Assembly: GCA_944321715.1 (NCBI GenBank)
Contig: CALUMJ010000025.1
Coordinates: forward strand, 1 to 40,698
Length of the DNA stretch: 40,698 bases
DNA from: an uncultured Muribaculaceae bacterium
GTDB lineage: Bacteria > Bacteroidota > Bacteroidia > Bacteroidales > Muribaculaceae
Direction of reading: 5' to 3'
The position numbers and the translations under genes are program-made. The notes beneath the pieces were generated by a model. It did no database searches. It was given only the letters and a program-made list of their open reading frames with translations, and was not told where the DNA came from. Position 1 is the stretch's first letter. The number at the start of each line of letters is the position of its first letter. Below, piece after piece: positions 10,769 through 17,353 of the stretch.

Positions 10769-11746
10769 ATGTTTAAGACAGGTCAAACATTATTGGTAGT
10801 TGCGAGCTTGTTGATGATGGCTTGCTGCAATGTGCTTGCAAAGGAGAGAGTTTCTCCGAGTGGCAATGAAATTTCAAATGAAATGTCGCTTTCCAATTTC
10901 GACAAAATCATTGTCAATGGGTCGTTTGAGGTGACCTACGAGGTGGGTAGCACACCCGGGGCGGTCGTGACAGGTTCGGACAACCTTGTGCCGTTGGTCA
11001 AGGTCGAAGTCGAAGGCAGCACCTTGTCGATAGGCTTCAAGCGGAACGTTAATGTAAATCAGAATGATGTAGTGGTGCGTGTCGTGGCTCCGTCGGTCAC
11101 AAAATATGTGGTAAACGGTTCGGGCGGGCTGTATGTGGTTTCGGCACTGAAGATGCAGCGGGAAAGCATCAAAACGGAAGTCAACGGTTCGGGTGACATT
11201 AAATTGACCGAATATGTTGAGTGCCAGTCGTTCGACGGCACAGTCAACGGCTCGGGCGACATAGATTTGCCGTCAACTTTGAAAGCATCAAAGTGGATTG
11301 GCTTGACAGTCAATGGTTCGGGCGACATAGCTGCCGACGCTTTGAATTGTGCAGAGTTTGGTGCGGCAGTTAACGGTTCGGGCGATTTGGCTGTGGAAAC
11401 TGTAGATGCAAAATTGTGCAAGGTTTCGCTATCGGGTTCGGGTGACTTGGATTGCAGCGATATAGACGCAGCTTCGGTAGAGGCTAAACTATCGGGTTCG
11501 GGTGATATATATATCGATGGCAAGGCGGCAAGTGCTACGATAGAAGTGGCTACATCGGGCAGCGTCGATGCCAGCGACTTGATTGCCAATGAAGTGTATG
11601 CCACTGTCAGCGGTTCGGGCGACATTGAGTGCCATGCCGTAAAGACTTTGAATGCCACTGTTAACGGTTCGGGCGATATTACTTACGACGGTTCGCCGCG
11701 TGTGTCGAAATATGGTTACAACAGCCATAATGTGCATAAAAATTGA
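10769..11746 (+). CDS. DUF2807 (GIN-domain) exported beta-helix protein
   Basis: A 325-residue protein with an N-terminal Sec signal peptide; MMACCNVLA could also be a lipobox-like site. The head-GIN part begins FDKIIVNGSFEVTYEVG (residues 44-60), typical of DUF2807 (putative auto-transporter adhesin head domain). From residue 116 there are about ten turns marked by NGSGD or SGSGD at residues 116, 139, 160, 182, 202, 222, 242, 262 (degenerate), 281 and 299, spaced 19-23 residues. This is the pattern of a right-handed beta-solenoid. Its function is unknown; surface or periplasmic adhesion is only a family guess. It is monocistronic, with a bidirectional terminator downstream. Confidence 0.85.
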   Translation: MFKTGQTLLVVASLLMMACCNVLAKERVSPSGNEISNEMSLSNFDKIIVNGSFEVTYEVGSTPGAVVTGSDNLVPLVKVEVEGSTLSIGFKRNVNVNQNDVVVRVVAPSVTKYVVNGSGGLYVVSALKMQRESIKTEVNGSGDIKLTEYVECQSFDGTVNGSGDIDLPSTLKASKWIGLTVNGSGDIAADALNCAEFGAAVNGSGDLAVETVDAKLCKVSLSGSGDLDCSDIDAASVEAKLSGSGDIYIDGKAASATIEVATSGSVDASDLIANEVYATVSGSGDIECHAVKTLNATVNGSGDITYDGSPRVSKYGYNSHNVHKN

Positions 11747-14213: not shown

Positions 14214-14244
14214 TTGGATATTTCCTTGGGATTGCGTACATTTG
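14214..14244 (+). promoter_or_regulatory. Promoter for the OmpA-family gene
   Basis: TTG at 14214-14216, a 20-base spacer and TACATTTG at 14237-14244, an exact -7 box. The predicted leader is about 40 bases. The same 8-mer TACATTTG occurs ahead of gldL. Confidence 0.65.
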
Positions 14245-14289: not shown

Positions 14290-15366
14290 ATGACTATGAA
14301 GAAAATGTTATTGGCGTGCTGTCTTTTGATGGCAGGCACAGCCTTTGCGCAAAACGAAAGTGTGCCGGTAGAAGCTGCCGGCGAAACGACGTTTTCTAAA
14401 AACCTCTACATCACTGGTGGTATTGGCGACAATGTGGCTTTGACAAAGGGTGTGGGGCTAAACGGCTTTTCCGGGAAAATAGGTATAGGCTCATGGTTTA
14501 ATGAACGGTCGGGGCTACGGGTTGTCTTCGGTGTCGGCAAGCGAGAATTTGACAACAATGCCAGGACTGGTTATTTCTCGTTGGGAGCTGACTATACTTT
14601 AAACCTGTTGAACATTTTCGACGCTTACCGCGAAGATGACCGTTTTACATTTGATTTAAATGTCGGCGCGGCATATTATCGTATGCGTAGTGGCGAGAAG
14701 CGCAACCGTCCAGAGGTACATGTGGGCTTAGGTGTGGGCTATAATTTCGCACCGCATTGGGCCGCATTTGCCGAAGTTGCAGCTTCGGGAATGGAGTCGC
14801 GCTACAGTGGCGACAGTAAAATCGGTATCGCTGCCGATTTCTCGATAGGCTTGCGTTACAGTTTCGGGCGGCATGACCGCCGCAGTGGCAATGGCGACGC
14901 ATGTACGTTGTATGACGGCATCAACGACCGGGTCAACAGCCTGAACAGCGAGGTGAAAAGGCTAAACGAAGAGGTTAACAGATTGCGTCTTGAAATAGAC
15001 AAGAAGAAAGATGAAGTACCCGACGGAAAGGTCATGATTGCCCCCGAACACGAAGAGGGTTCAATCGACATATTTTTTGAGCAATATAGTTCGTTCCTGG
15101 GTGAAGAGCAACGTGCAAAAATCGAGGCGATAGGCACATGGCTCAAGGATAACGGTTATAACATCAAGATTGTGGCTTTCAGTGACAATCTGAACGATGC
15201 TGAAATCGACGGGAAGCTGCGCGATGGACGCACCGGGGCTATAAGGTCGTTGCTCGAAACCGAATTTGGCATTGATGCTAATCGCATCACGGTGGTCAAT
15301 GCCGAAGAACTGGGCTACAAAAATGTCAGCGGTTGCAATGCCAAGATATTGTTTTCGCAACCGTGA
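14290..15366 (+). CDS. OmpA-family outer-membrane protein
   Basis: A 358-residue protein (a start two codons later at 14296, MKKMLLACC, is equally good). After a Sec signal peptide ending AFAQ there is an eight-strand-type beta-barrel (about residues 38-193, alternating pattern ending GLRYSFG), a heptad coiled coil (about 211-241) and a C-terminal OmpA-like domain (about 258-358). The peptidoglycan-contact residues appear kept as Asp299 (FSDN) and Arg314 (GRTGAI), but the domain is divergent. It would tie the outer membrane to the cell wall. It lies directly upstream of gldL/gldM, in the position where gldK/porP-type partners usually occur, but gldL has its own -7 box. Confidence 0.8.
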   Translation: MTMKKMLLACCLLMAGTAFAQNESVPVEAAGETTFSKNLYITGGIGDNVALTKGVGLNGFSGKIGIGSWFNERSGLRVVFGVGKREFDNNARTGYFSLGADYTLNLLNIFDAYREDDRFTFDLNVGAAYYRMRSGEKRNRPEVHVGLGVGYNFAPHWAAFAEVAASGMESRYSGDSKIGIAADFSIGLRYSFGRHDRRSGNGDACTLYDGINDRVNSLNSEVKRLNEEVNRLRLEIDKKKDEVPDGKVMIAPEHEEGSIDIFFEQYSSFLGEEQRAKIEAIGTWLKDNGYNIKIVAFSDNLNDAEIDGKLRDGRTGAIRSLLETEFGIDANRITVVNAEELGYKNVSGCNAKILFSQP

Positions 15367-15400
15367 CACTGGCACGCTCTTAAATAACTTTTTAATTATA

Positions 15401-15408
15401 TACATTTG
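15401..15408 (+). promoter_or_regulatory. -7 box ahead of gldL
   Basis: TACATTTG, an exact TAnnTTTG box, 81 bases before the gldL ATG. No clear TTG is found 19-21 bases upstream. It may give gldL/gldM expression independent of the OmpA-family gene. Confidence 0.4.
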
Positions 15409-15488
15409 TCTGTGCTTTGGAATGCCTTGGAAAAGGTGTTCCAAAGTAGCGGACAATAATGCACTTCATTATACTATATAAACAAAAC

Positions 15489-16019
15489 ATGGGGATTCAA
15501 CGATTTTTATCGAGCCGGGCAGGCAAGCGGTTTTATAATATTGCTTATTGTTGGGGAGCCTGCTTGGTGATTTTAGGCGCAGTGTTTAAAATTGTGCACA
15601 TGCCGTATGACAACGTATTTCTGATGATAGGTCTGTTTACCGAGGTATTCATATTTTTCATCTCGGGCTTTGATGTTCCTGCCTCGGATTACAAGTGGGA
15701 CAAGGTGTTTCCTCAGTTGAAAGAGGGCGACAAATCGTCGTATGGAGAAACGCAGCTTCCCGACCCGACGGGAGAATTGGCAGCCCGATATGCCGAGCAG
15801 ATGAAGCGGCTCGACGAAAACTTGTCGCGCTTGAACGAGGCATACGAGGAACAAATCAGGAAAGTGTCGGCTGGTGCCGCCGCAGTAAATCCCGAAACCT
15901 TTACCTCGATTGAAAAAGAAACTTCACATCTTGTGAGCCAAGTTCAGTTGCTTAACAGGCAGTATGCGCGTATGCTTGAGGCTCTCAATGTGACGGAATC
16001 AAAGGGTAGAAATAAATAA
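15489..16019 (+). CDS. gldL: GldL/PorL-like T9SS motor protein
   Basis: A 176-residue protein from MGIQRFLSSRAGKRFYNIAY. The reading frame could begin ten codons earlier, but canonical GldL starts just before this conserved stretch. There are two transmembrane helices (about 20-36 and 43-60). The residues known from the Flavobacterium GldL proton channel are all present with matching spacing in helix 1: Tyr20, Lys34 and His37, plus Glu52 in helix 2 (GLFTEVFIFFISGF). The C-terminal cytoplasmic part is coiled coil and carries the QYARMLEAL motif. GldL forms a pentamer around two GldM and turns proton flow into motion that drives T9SS export. It is shorter than GldL (about 215) or PorL (about 300). 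gldM follows after 8 bases. Confidence 0.88.
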   Translation: MGIQRFLSSRAGKRFYNIAYCWGACLVILGAVFKIVHMPYDNVFLMIGLFTEVFIFFISGFDVPASDYKWDKVFPQLKEGDKSSYGETQLPDPTGELAARYAEQMKRLDENLSRLNEAYEEQIRKVSAGAAAVNPETFTSIEKETSHLVSQVQLLNRQYARMLEALNVTESKGRNK

Positions 16020-16027
16020 CGCCGGCC

Positions 16028-17353
16028 ATGTCGAAATATGTAATGCCACCACGGCAGAAGATGATTAATCTGCTGTATGTGATACTTATAGCCATGCTCG
16101 CTATAAATATATCGTCGGATGTGCTTCAGGGATATGACTTGATGGACGAGGAATTGAAAGTGCGCATTGACGCTACCGAGCGGTATATCGACACTATGCG
16201 TATGCAAGTGGCAGCACGGAATGACAAGCAGTTGATTGCTGTCTCAAATCGTGCATACGCCCAGACGCAGACGATGAGGCAAATGCTTGACAGCCTGCGC
16301 GAGGCTATAGCCCGGTATGCCGATAAAGACGATTATCGCAAGGGCAAACTACATGCCCGCGAGGACCTGAATGCTGTGCCGGGTGTGATGTTGTCGGCGA
16401 CCAATGGCAAAGGGCGGGCTTTGCGGCTTGCCCTTGAAACGTATCGCGACAGCATGTTGCAACTTATAGCAGACAGCGCCAAGCGTGCCTACGCATCGTC
16501 GTCCCTGATGTTGCGAAGCGATGTAAGGGGAATGTCGTGGGAGAGGGAAACGTTTTCCTATTTGCCGGCCGTGGGTGGCGTGATGATGCTTAACTACCTT
16601 GAAGATGAGGTTGTGCAGATGCTGGCAGAGGTACACCATTCGATGCTCGAAGACGGATTGGAAGGCGTGAAGAATGATGCTGGGAGCTATGTGCTAATCA
16701 ATGAAAACCAACGCATCGTTGACGATAATGGAATGTTTGATGTCCCGGTAGTGCTTGTGTCGCCATCGGCAATCAATACGTTATATGCAGGATATGACAA
16801 TGCGCTAAACATATTTTGTGCCGGTGTGCCGTTTGACCAACTTGATTTTGCAGCATCGGGAGGCACTGTGGTGCATCGTGGCGGAATGTGCATAATCAAG
16901 CCTAACCGTGATGCTCGTGCACTGTCGTTGCGCATCGACTGTGTACGCGATGGCAAGCGCATACACTTGTGCGACTATGATTACAAGGTGAAACCCTTGC
17001 CCGACCCAGTGGCATACTTGACTTACCGTGGGAGCGACAATACCGTGCATAACTATTATGGCGGTGTGCCAATACGCCGTGAGGACCTTGGCAATGCCAT
17101 AGGTGTGGAAGCGCAAGTCAACGACGGCCCTCAGGTGAAGTTCATTGTCAAAAGTTTTGAAACAATGATGATAAAGAATGGCACAGGCGAGATTAGCTCG
17201 GTACGCTCGCAAGGCAACAGGCTGTCGGACGCCCAGTATGAGCAAATAGCGCAGTTGTCGCCCGGCGACAAGTTTTATGTGACATCGGTAGTGGTGGTTT
17301 CGCCCGACGGGTCGGTCAAGCAGATTTCGCCGATTAACATGATAATCATCTGA
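16028..17353 (+). CDS. gldM: GldM/PorM-like T9SS motor protein
   Basis: A 441-residue protein. The N-terminus MPPRQKMINLLYVILIAML is the single transmembrane helix of GldM, with Arg9 and Tyr17 at the positions important in Flavobacterium GldM. A long periplasmic part follows: helical D1 (about 40-215), then beta-rich domains including the stretch ASGGTVVHRGGMCIIKPNRD and a C-terminal domain ending PDGSVKQISPINMIII. GldM carries torque across the periplasm to the GldK/GldN ring. It is shorter than PorM (about 515), yet both ends look intact. gldN/porN is not downstream: the next gene is a glycosidase with its own promoter. Confidence 0.88.
   Translation: MSKYVMPPRQKMINLLYVILIAMLAINISSDVLQGYDLMDEELKVRIDATERYIDTMRMQVAARNDKQLIAVSNRAYAQTQTMRQMLDSLREAIARYADKDDYRKGKLHAREDLNAVPGVMLSATNGKGRALRLALETYRDSMLQLIADSAKRAYASSSLMLRSDVRGMSWERETFSYLPAVGGVMMLNYLEDEVVQMLAEVHHSMLEDGLEGVKNDAGSYVLINENQRIVDDNGMFDVPVVLVSPSAINTLYAGYDNALNIFCAGVPFDQLDFAASGGTVVHRGGMCIIKPNRDARALSLRIDCVRDGKRIHLCDYDYKVKPLPDPVAYLTYRGSDNTVHNYYGGVPIRREDLGNAIGVEAQVNDGPQVKFIVKSFETMMIKNGTGEISSVRSQGNRLSDAQYEQIAQLSPGDKFYVTSVVVVSPDGSVKQISPINMIII

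Follow-up and report, generated by a model that had tools for sequence, protein, structure and literature searches.

The window analysed here is a contig of 40,698 nucleotides from an uncultured Muribaculaceae bacterium (assembly GCA_944321715.1, contig CALUMJ010000025.1, C25 in our numbering). It carries a trio of genes, named OmpA2, gldL2 and gldM2 in the following, which encode an OmpA-type protein together with a second set of the GldL and GldM motor subunits of the type IX secretion system (T9SS). With a confidence somewhat above even, the trio is read as a second, T9SS-derived, proton-driven motor whose shaft would act on its own OmpA-type outer-membrane partner. The observed basis of this reading consists of the three genes themselves, their linkage and co-occurrence in eight genomes of two Bacteroidales families, the motor residues, a deleted domain, purifying selection and a complete T9SS coexisting with the trio.

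Shortened GldL and GldM beside a complete T9SS

The open reading frames of the window place OmpA2 at 14290-15366 (358 amino acids, aa), gldL2 at 15489-16019 (176 aa) and gldM2 at 16028-17353 (441 aa), consecutive and all on the plus strand, just where an earlier note, made from the letters of this DNA, had put them. The start of gldL2 at 15489 follows the start codons of its relatives; the mechanical start of the frame at 15459 was set aside. Both motor proteins pass the NCBIfam equivalog models of their families, GldL2 with 150.6 bits for TIGR03513 (cut-off 68.3) and GldM2 with 286.3 bits for TIGR03517 (cut-off 180). By sequence, the best matches among solved structures are PorL (7sat) for GldL2 and PorM (7cmg) for GldM2.

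Both proteins are shorter than the usual forms, as the same note had said. In the window's genome, GldL2 is 141 residues shorter than the canonical GldL (176 vs. 317 aa), and GldM2 has 441 aa against 525. Across the eight trio genomes, GldL2 measures 158-191 aa, compared with 275-356 aa for 44 canonical GldL picked with a 250-aa minimum, and GldM2 measures 414-441 aa, compared with 516-540 aa at 79 canonical loci (460-aa minimum; some loci are repeats of one gene). The canonical ranges are partly set by construction through these filters (GldM above 460 aa, GldL above 250 aa); the unfiltered canonical GldM frames of the family searches have lengths similar to those of the filtered set. Ordinary GldM is also present at L094, L106, L109 and L116 of a second Bacteroidales family, but no frame there passed the motif-and-start filter, and these loci are not part of the column comparison given below.

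The missing parts are well defined. GldL2 keeps the membrane part and lacks most of the cytoplasmic coiled coil. GldM2 consists of domains 1, 3 and 4: the Pfam domain GldM_2nd is absent from the window copy and from four further scanned copies and is present in the canonical GldM of the same genome, and the remaining three of the eight copies, of the same length class, align without domain 2. The four periplasmic domains that characterize GldM/PorM are hence not all found in GldM2. The residues Tyr20, Lys34, His37 and Glu52 of GldL2 and Arg9 and Tyr17 of GldM2, which the earlier note had listed and which are all present with the start at 15489, are kept in eight of eight trio copies. In the structural literature on GldLM, these residues have a role in proton passage. 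The glycine after His-x-Pro, near-invariant in canonical GldL, is a tyrosine in all eight GldL2 and marks the clade; in this comparison, the 44 canonical rows come from a motif search in which some membrane residues are fixed, and the eight GldL2 rows were taken by coordinates.

Of the near-invariant columns of canonical GldM (57 chosen loci, 55 distinct sequences, domain bounds set by hand), at least four of the eight GldM2 keep 20/23 in the membrane part, 14/25 in domain 1, 12/20 in domain 3 and 14/24 in domain 4. Judged from these alignments, the engine residues are intact and the shaft of GldM2 is shortened, with no special loss in domain 4.

A canonical system is encoded elsewhere in the same genome. 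Contig C54 carries adjacent genes for a PorP-like protein, GldK, GldL (317 aa), GldM (525 aa) and GldN, PorP and GldK being named by reading the translations; the only GldN match of the genome lies on this contig, and SprA is present as well. Next to this full-size set, the window pair is an extra motor. The earlier note had proposed that the genome be searched for gldK, gldN, sprA and a second gldL/gldM; all were found, so the window copies are the second set. It had also offered the explanation that a T9SS operon was split, with the window genes as the only motor genes of the genome, apart from gldK and gldN. This explanation is practically excluded, since the complete porP-gldKLMN cluster and SprA are found in the same genome. 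It would hold only if C54 were a contaminant, and in the tree the GldM of C54 falls among the canonical GldM of the window's genus. Its description of gldL and gldM as detached has to be amended, as the pair comes in addition to the T9SS operon. No GldK or GldN homologue was found in the stretches fetched around the eight trios, and the encoding of gldL and gldM together with gldK and gldN, typical of the T9SS core module, is thus not seen in the trio.

Distribution and descent of the trio

With a GldM2 profile, full-length copies were found in four of the nine genomes of the window's genus, at 666-942 bits; the canonical GldM of the genus gives two pieces of ~100-114 bits. In another Bacteroidales family (f59), four of 301 genomes have a full-length GldM2 (300-658 bits), the next best match being a 158-bit piece of a 523-aa GldM. 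In all eight genomes found with GldM2, the genes for OmpA2, GldL2 and GldM2 are direct neighbours on one strand. An OmpA neighbour that is not kept beside gldL and gldM in relatives had been named in advance as a refutation; the neighbour is conserved throughout. As to the order OmpA-gldL-gldM, whose conservation was also to be checked, the adjacency holds, whereas the order varies: OmpA2-gldL2-gldM2 in the genus (four genomes) and gldL2-gldM2-OmpA2 in f59 (four genomes). The intergenic gaps within the trios are 4-24 nt, stop codon included; the exception is the OmpA2-gldL2 gap of three genomes, which measures 125-166 nt. By the translations of the neighbouring genes, the trios lie in six different surroundings: those of the window and G125 are alike, as are those of G1068 and G1153, and G138, G023, G580 and G1087 are each distinct.

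A search for the partner leads to the same genomes. OmpA2 profiles gave 588-642 bits in the four GldM2 genomes among 198 of the window's family, with all others at or below 84.7, and 486-553 bits in the four GldM2 genomes among the 301 of f59, with all others at or below 134.6; no comparable score for an OmpA2-like partner was obtained among the candidates scored in the other 491 genomes of the two families, in many of them the 6-10 best of a first look. The trio was not found in a third family: the window's genome was the sole match among 395 phylum genomes (E <= 1e-38) and among 188 order genomes (E <= 1e-50), and a three-row profile (E <= 1e-60) found only the window's genome and G580 among 393 order genomes, all these sets being samples of larger groups and the thresholds being such that more distant versions would be missed. 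The trio is rare and patchy.

Six further genomes of the window's family (G057, G075, G085, G133, G144 and G189) have two GldM matches each, which are either additional copies or genes broken at the end of a contig; OmpA2-like matches in the six stay at or below 85 bits.

A mobile element was considered as the carrier of the trio and rejected: the trio was seen in neither viral contigs nor plasmid records, and its G+C content (0.45-0.63) follows that of the surrounding DNA (0.44-0.65). Two loci of viral contigs matched, both 22% identical over GldM residues 8-212. These two IMG/VR contigs, L139 and L140, have a GldM frame of 530 aa, a canonical size, and are perhaps host DNA called viral. Among the plasmid records, a single one matched: NZ_OY725749.1, assigned to Parabacteroides distasonis and 168,674 bases long, has at 142623-144155 an annotated gldM with 26% identity to GldM2.

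In trees of both motor proteins, the trio copies stand apart. The eight GldM2 form one clade (support 100/100) in a tree of 44 proteins, on a stem of 2.1 changes per column for which the program warned of long branches, and the eight GldL2 form one clade (100/100) against 44 canonical GldL, also with long-branch warnings. The earlier note had called for such a GldLM tree, in which the window proteins indeed fall into clades separate from the canonical copies. When only the genus copies or only the f59 copies of GldM2 are used, each half is again one clade (100/100). Neither joins the canonical copies of its own family; both branch off close to the base that separates the two canonical groups, with support that is weak in places (e.g., 68/0 for the canonical group of f59 in the first of these trees). 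This attachment speaks against two separate recent duplications of GldM2. That long branches alone had produced the GldM2 clade was also considered and rejected, the half-set trees repeating the outside attachment, though the f59-only tree still warns for G580. For the partner, a tree of 19 barrel proteins separates all eight OmpA2, as a single clade (100/99), from the 11 ordinary OmpA included.

The three genes seem to share their history. Unrooted trees of the eight rows split the genus from f59 for GldL2 (99/98), GldM2 (100/100) and OmpA2 (100/100), and all three group G1087, G1068 and G1153; they disagree on the branching within the genus, where support is weak. This pattern is in keeping with long inheritance of the trio as one unit, accompanied by loss or transfer.

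The open reading frames are intact in all eight trios. The ratios of nonsynonymous to synonymous substitution rates (dN/dS) between the window and G125 are 0.084 for GldL2, 0.086 for GldM2 and 0.101 for OmpA2 (at dS above 1); between G1068 and G1153, they are 0.122, 0.140 and 0.157, respectively (dS 0.17-0.29). In the same pairs, the canonical GldM has 0.025 (window-G125) and 0.076 (G1068-G1153). For remoter pairs, dS is often saturated or undefined, and the dN/dS of the trio reaches 0.29 where it is defined. The trio genes are under purifying selection and are constrained less than the canonical motor.

OmpA2 and the proposed coupling of the motor

The predicted layout of OmpA2 is that of an outer-membrane OmpA-type protein: a start resembling a signal peptide, as read from the letters, is followed by a putative barrel (residues ~39-192), a coiled-coil helix (204-240) and a divergent OmpA-like domain (256-356). 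In Pfam, the window copy narrowly misses the thresholds of two families, with 24.6 against 27.2 for OmpA and 24.2 against 28.7 for OMP_b-brl. Among four other copies, PF00691 scores 32.9 in G580, above the cut-off of 27.2, and 26.7, 23.9 and 19.1 in the rest. The predicted structure, a low-confidence model (mean predicted local distance difference test score 59.7) built, as the other models, from three alignment rows, contains eight strands, followed by a helix of 37 residues and a domain like that of OmpA; its best match among solved structures in Foldseek is Escherichia coli OmpA (E 2e-8). Furthermore, a profile of five OmpA2 copies matches the OmpA domains of OprF and Acinetobacter baumannii OmpA. 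An OmpA-family barrel upstream of gldL, as first described for this DNA, thus appears in the model as well, with the Pfam OmpA score slightly too low.

Binding to the cell wall is another matter. PorE binds a peptidoglycan fragment via Asp576, Asn584 and Arg591 (PMC7192894). The equivalents in the window OmpA2 are Asp299, Asp307 and Arg314. Across the eight OmpA2, the Asp is kept in seven and the Arg in eight, while the Asn is found in none (Asp in five, Glu in two, Gly in one), so that the Asp/Asn/Arg contact trio of the OmpA family is incomplete in every copy. The Asn is kept in 11 of 11 ordinary OmpA rows, the remainder of 22 chosen loci, of which 12 passed the frame filter and one gave a one-residue row; the C-terminal end of OmpA2 also differs from that of these 11. 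Because the pocket Asn is replaced in all eight, binding of OmpA2 to the cell wall seems doubtful. Perhaps binding at the pocket is weak, or perhaps the domain has been turned into a docking site. The proposal of the earlier note, a second motor paired with an OmpA-type, cell-wall-bound protein, hence stands as to the second copy and the conserved partner; the coupling to this protein in place of the GldK/GldN ring is putative, and the attribute cell-wall-bound is uncertain.

In the reading preferred here, five GldL2 and a dimer of GldM2 would form a 5:2 motor in the inner membrane, as expected from their homologues 6ys8 and 7sat. The GldM2 shaft, one domain shorter than that of the T9SS, would be turned or swung by protons passing along the conserved Lys/His/Glu-Arg/Tyr path. 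Its tip, domains 3 and 4, would engage the coiled coil and the OmpA-like domain of OmpA2 in place of the GldK/GldN ring, and force would be passed on to the outer-membrane barrel. We infer the stoichiometry, the proton use, the GldM2-OmpA2 contact and the possible outputs, which may be moving, loading or mechanically coupling the outer membrane. That the trio forms a distinct envelope machine, in which the motor was split from the T9SS, its shaft shortened and the GldK/GldN ring replaced by an OmpA-type barrel, to give a Tol-Pal-like or MotAB-like device made of T9SS parts, we hold at slightly less than an even chance.

Several observations weigh against the preferred reading. SprA is present in seven of the eight trio genomes, the miss being G125, which is 83% complete, and the PorP-K-L-M-N cluster is whole in the window's genome and at five of six further fetched loci, the sixth being cut by a contig end (the cluster of G1087 was not among them). 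With these T9SS parts in the trio genomes, it could still be the ordinary ring that GldM2 serves. Domain 4 of GldM2 has changed no more than domains 1 and 3: a lost GldN interface was sought there, and the result, with no sharp sign of it, was unconvincing. The better retention of the membrane part relative to the rest of GldM2 gives p = 0.02 with all columns and p = 0.12 without the positions of the search motif. The long branches in the GldM and GldL trees carry a program warning of possibly false joins. Finally, the OmpA2 profiles include the positive genomes among their rows, so that their informative part is the want of further high scorers, and in many of the 491 other genomes only the 6-10 best candidates of a first look were scored.

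These points favour, in part, an accessory motor of the ordinary T9SS, with GldLM2 driving the GldK/GldN ring for some condition or cargo and OmpA2 serving as a scaffold or anchor like PorE or PorG. Besides the co-occurring T9SS genes, GldM2 retains recognisable domains 3 and 4 that match those of PorM, and a T9SS part, PorE, has an OmpA-like peptidoglycan-binding domain (PMC7192894). However, co-occurrence with a T9SS is expected anyway in the window's family, where GldM is near universal (192 of 198 genomes); a GldM2 without domain 2 would have a shaft shorter than that of the motor serving the ring; and OmpA2 is not PorE, being a predicted barrel in which the Pfam scan found no TPR or propeller domain. 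We consider this explanation unlikely. The placement of the PorM tip on PorN comes from an AlphaFold 3 model with weak confidence metrics and a surface that is not substantially conserved (PMC12635249); for this reason, sequence alone cannot decide between the ring and OmpA2.

OmpA2 could also be a static tether of the motor to the cell wall or outer membrane, in the manner of MotB, the driven partner being another, unlinked protein. The pocket Asp and Arg, kept in seven and eight copies, are compatible with this, and MotB of the 5:2 motor MotAB anchors to peptidoglycan (PMC9389320). However, the third contact, Asn584 in PorE, is exactly the one replaced in every copy and kept in the ordinary OmpA, and wall binding may be weakened; the tether is rated as improbable. 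A decaying duplicate, fallen beside an OmpA gene by chance, would account for the patchy occurrence (four of nine genomes in the genus, four of 301 in f59) and for dN/dS values above those of canonical GldM in the same pairs. This explanation is very improbable nonetheless: the frames are open in all eight genomes, dN/dS is 0.08-0.16 in the two nearest pairs, and the same neighbour recurs in six surroundings and two gene orders.

Compared with the T9SS motor PorLM (GldLM), the trio shares a homologous GldL membrane part and GldM membrane helix, alike ion-path residues and GldM domains 1, 3 and 4. It differs by the absence of GldM domain 2, of most of the GldL coiled coil and of linked gldK and gldN, by the link to OmpA2 and by its separate clades on long stems. 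By its model, OmpA2 has the barrel, coiled coil and OmpA domain architecture of Bacteroidota OmpA-type proteins, but it is a separate clade with the pocket Asn replaced, an unlike C-terminal end and linkage to motor genes. PorE is thought to join the outer membrane and peptidoglycan via its OmpA-like domain (PMC7192894), and PorG is described as an outer-membrane barrel attached to the GldK/PorK track (PMC12635249); OmpA2, by its model, unites a barrel and an OmpA-like domain in one protein encoded with the motor.

Tol-Pal and MotAB, both 5:2 proton motors, are work-alikes only; here the motor subunits are GldL and GldM. What they have in common with the proposed machine is an inner-membrane proton motor that acts on an OmpA-like domain, such as Pal, or is held by one. 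No description of a GldLM-OmpA unit was found in a literature search by titles and abstract starts, with subscription journals mostly outside its coverage. The protein families are known; what sets the unit apart is their constant association, the lost domain and the clades of their own. GldLM has been described as a secretion and gliding motor acting via the GldK/GldN track. If the preferred reading is true, a second lineage with a different fixed partner would mean that GldLM, in the manner of the ExbBD/TolQR/MotAB group, has a modular build that allows recoupling, and would offer a natural comparison of which GldM parts are engine and which are output. The trio is also a test of the purpose of GldM domain 2 and the long GldL coiled coil, both absent here with the engine residues kept.

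Expression signals and neighbouring genes

An RNA hairpin (15416-15445, plus strand, z -5.1) lies between OmpA2 and gldL2. Strong hairpins are also present in the OmpA2-gldL2 gap of G125 (z -6.6, partly similar sequence) and of G138 (z -5.1, different sequence, the first 148 of 163 bases having been folded). Of ten other gaps of the window, three fall below z -4, and by our own gene calls each of these lies at the 3' end of a gene, so the hairpin after OmpA2 is probably an ordinary gene-end or processing element. Through it, the cell could produce more OmpA2 than motor protein. Upstream of OmpA2, a candidate Bacteroidota-type promoter, TTG-N20-TACATTTG, was read from the sequence at 14214-14244 (plus strand). 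A TACATTTG box at 15401-15408, just 5' of the hairpin, could give gldL2 its own promoter; it was not seen at that place in G125.

By the Pfam scan, the trio is preceded by an AraC-type regulator. The gene that follows, a glycosidase in the earlier description, encodes a GalB-type beta-galactosidase of glycoside hydrolase family 2 (905.5 bits against a cut-off of 900). A DUF2807 (head-GIN) protein is encoded upstream at 10769-11746, on the same strand as the trio, and a similar frame is found at the matching place in G125. At the beginning of the window, two tRNA-Glu genes (237-309 and 686-758), with identical anticodon and equal Rfam score, lie 449 bases apart.

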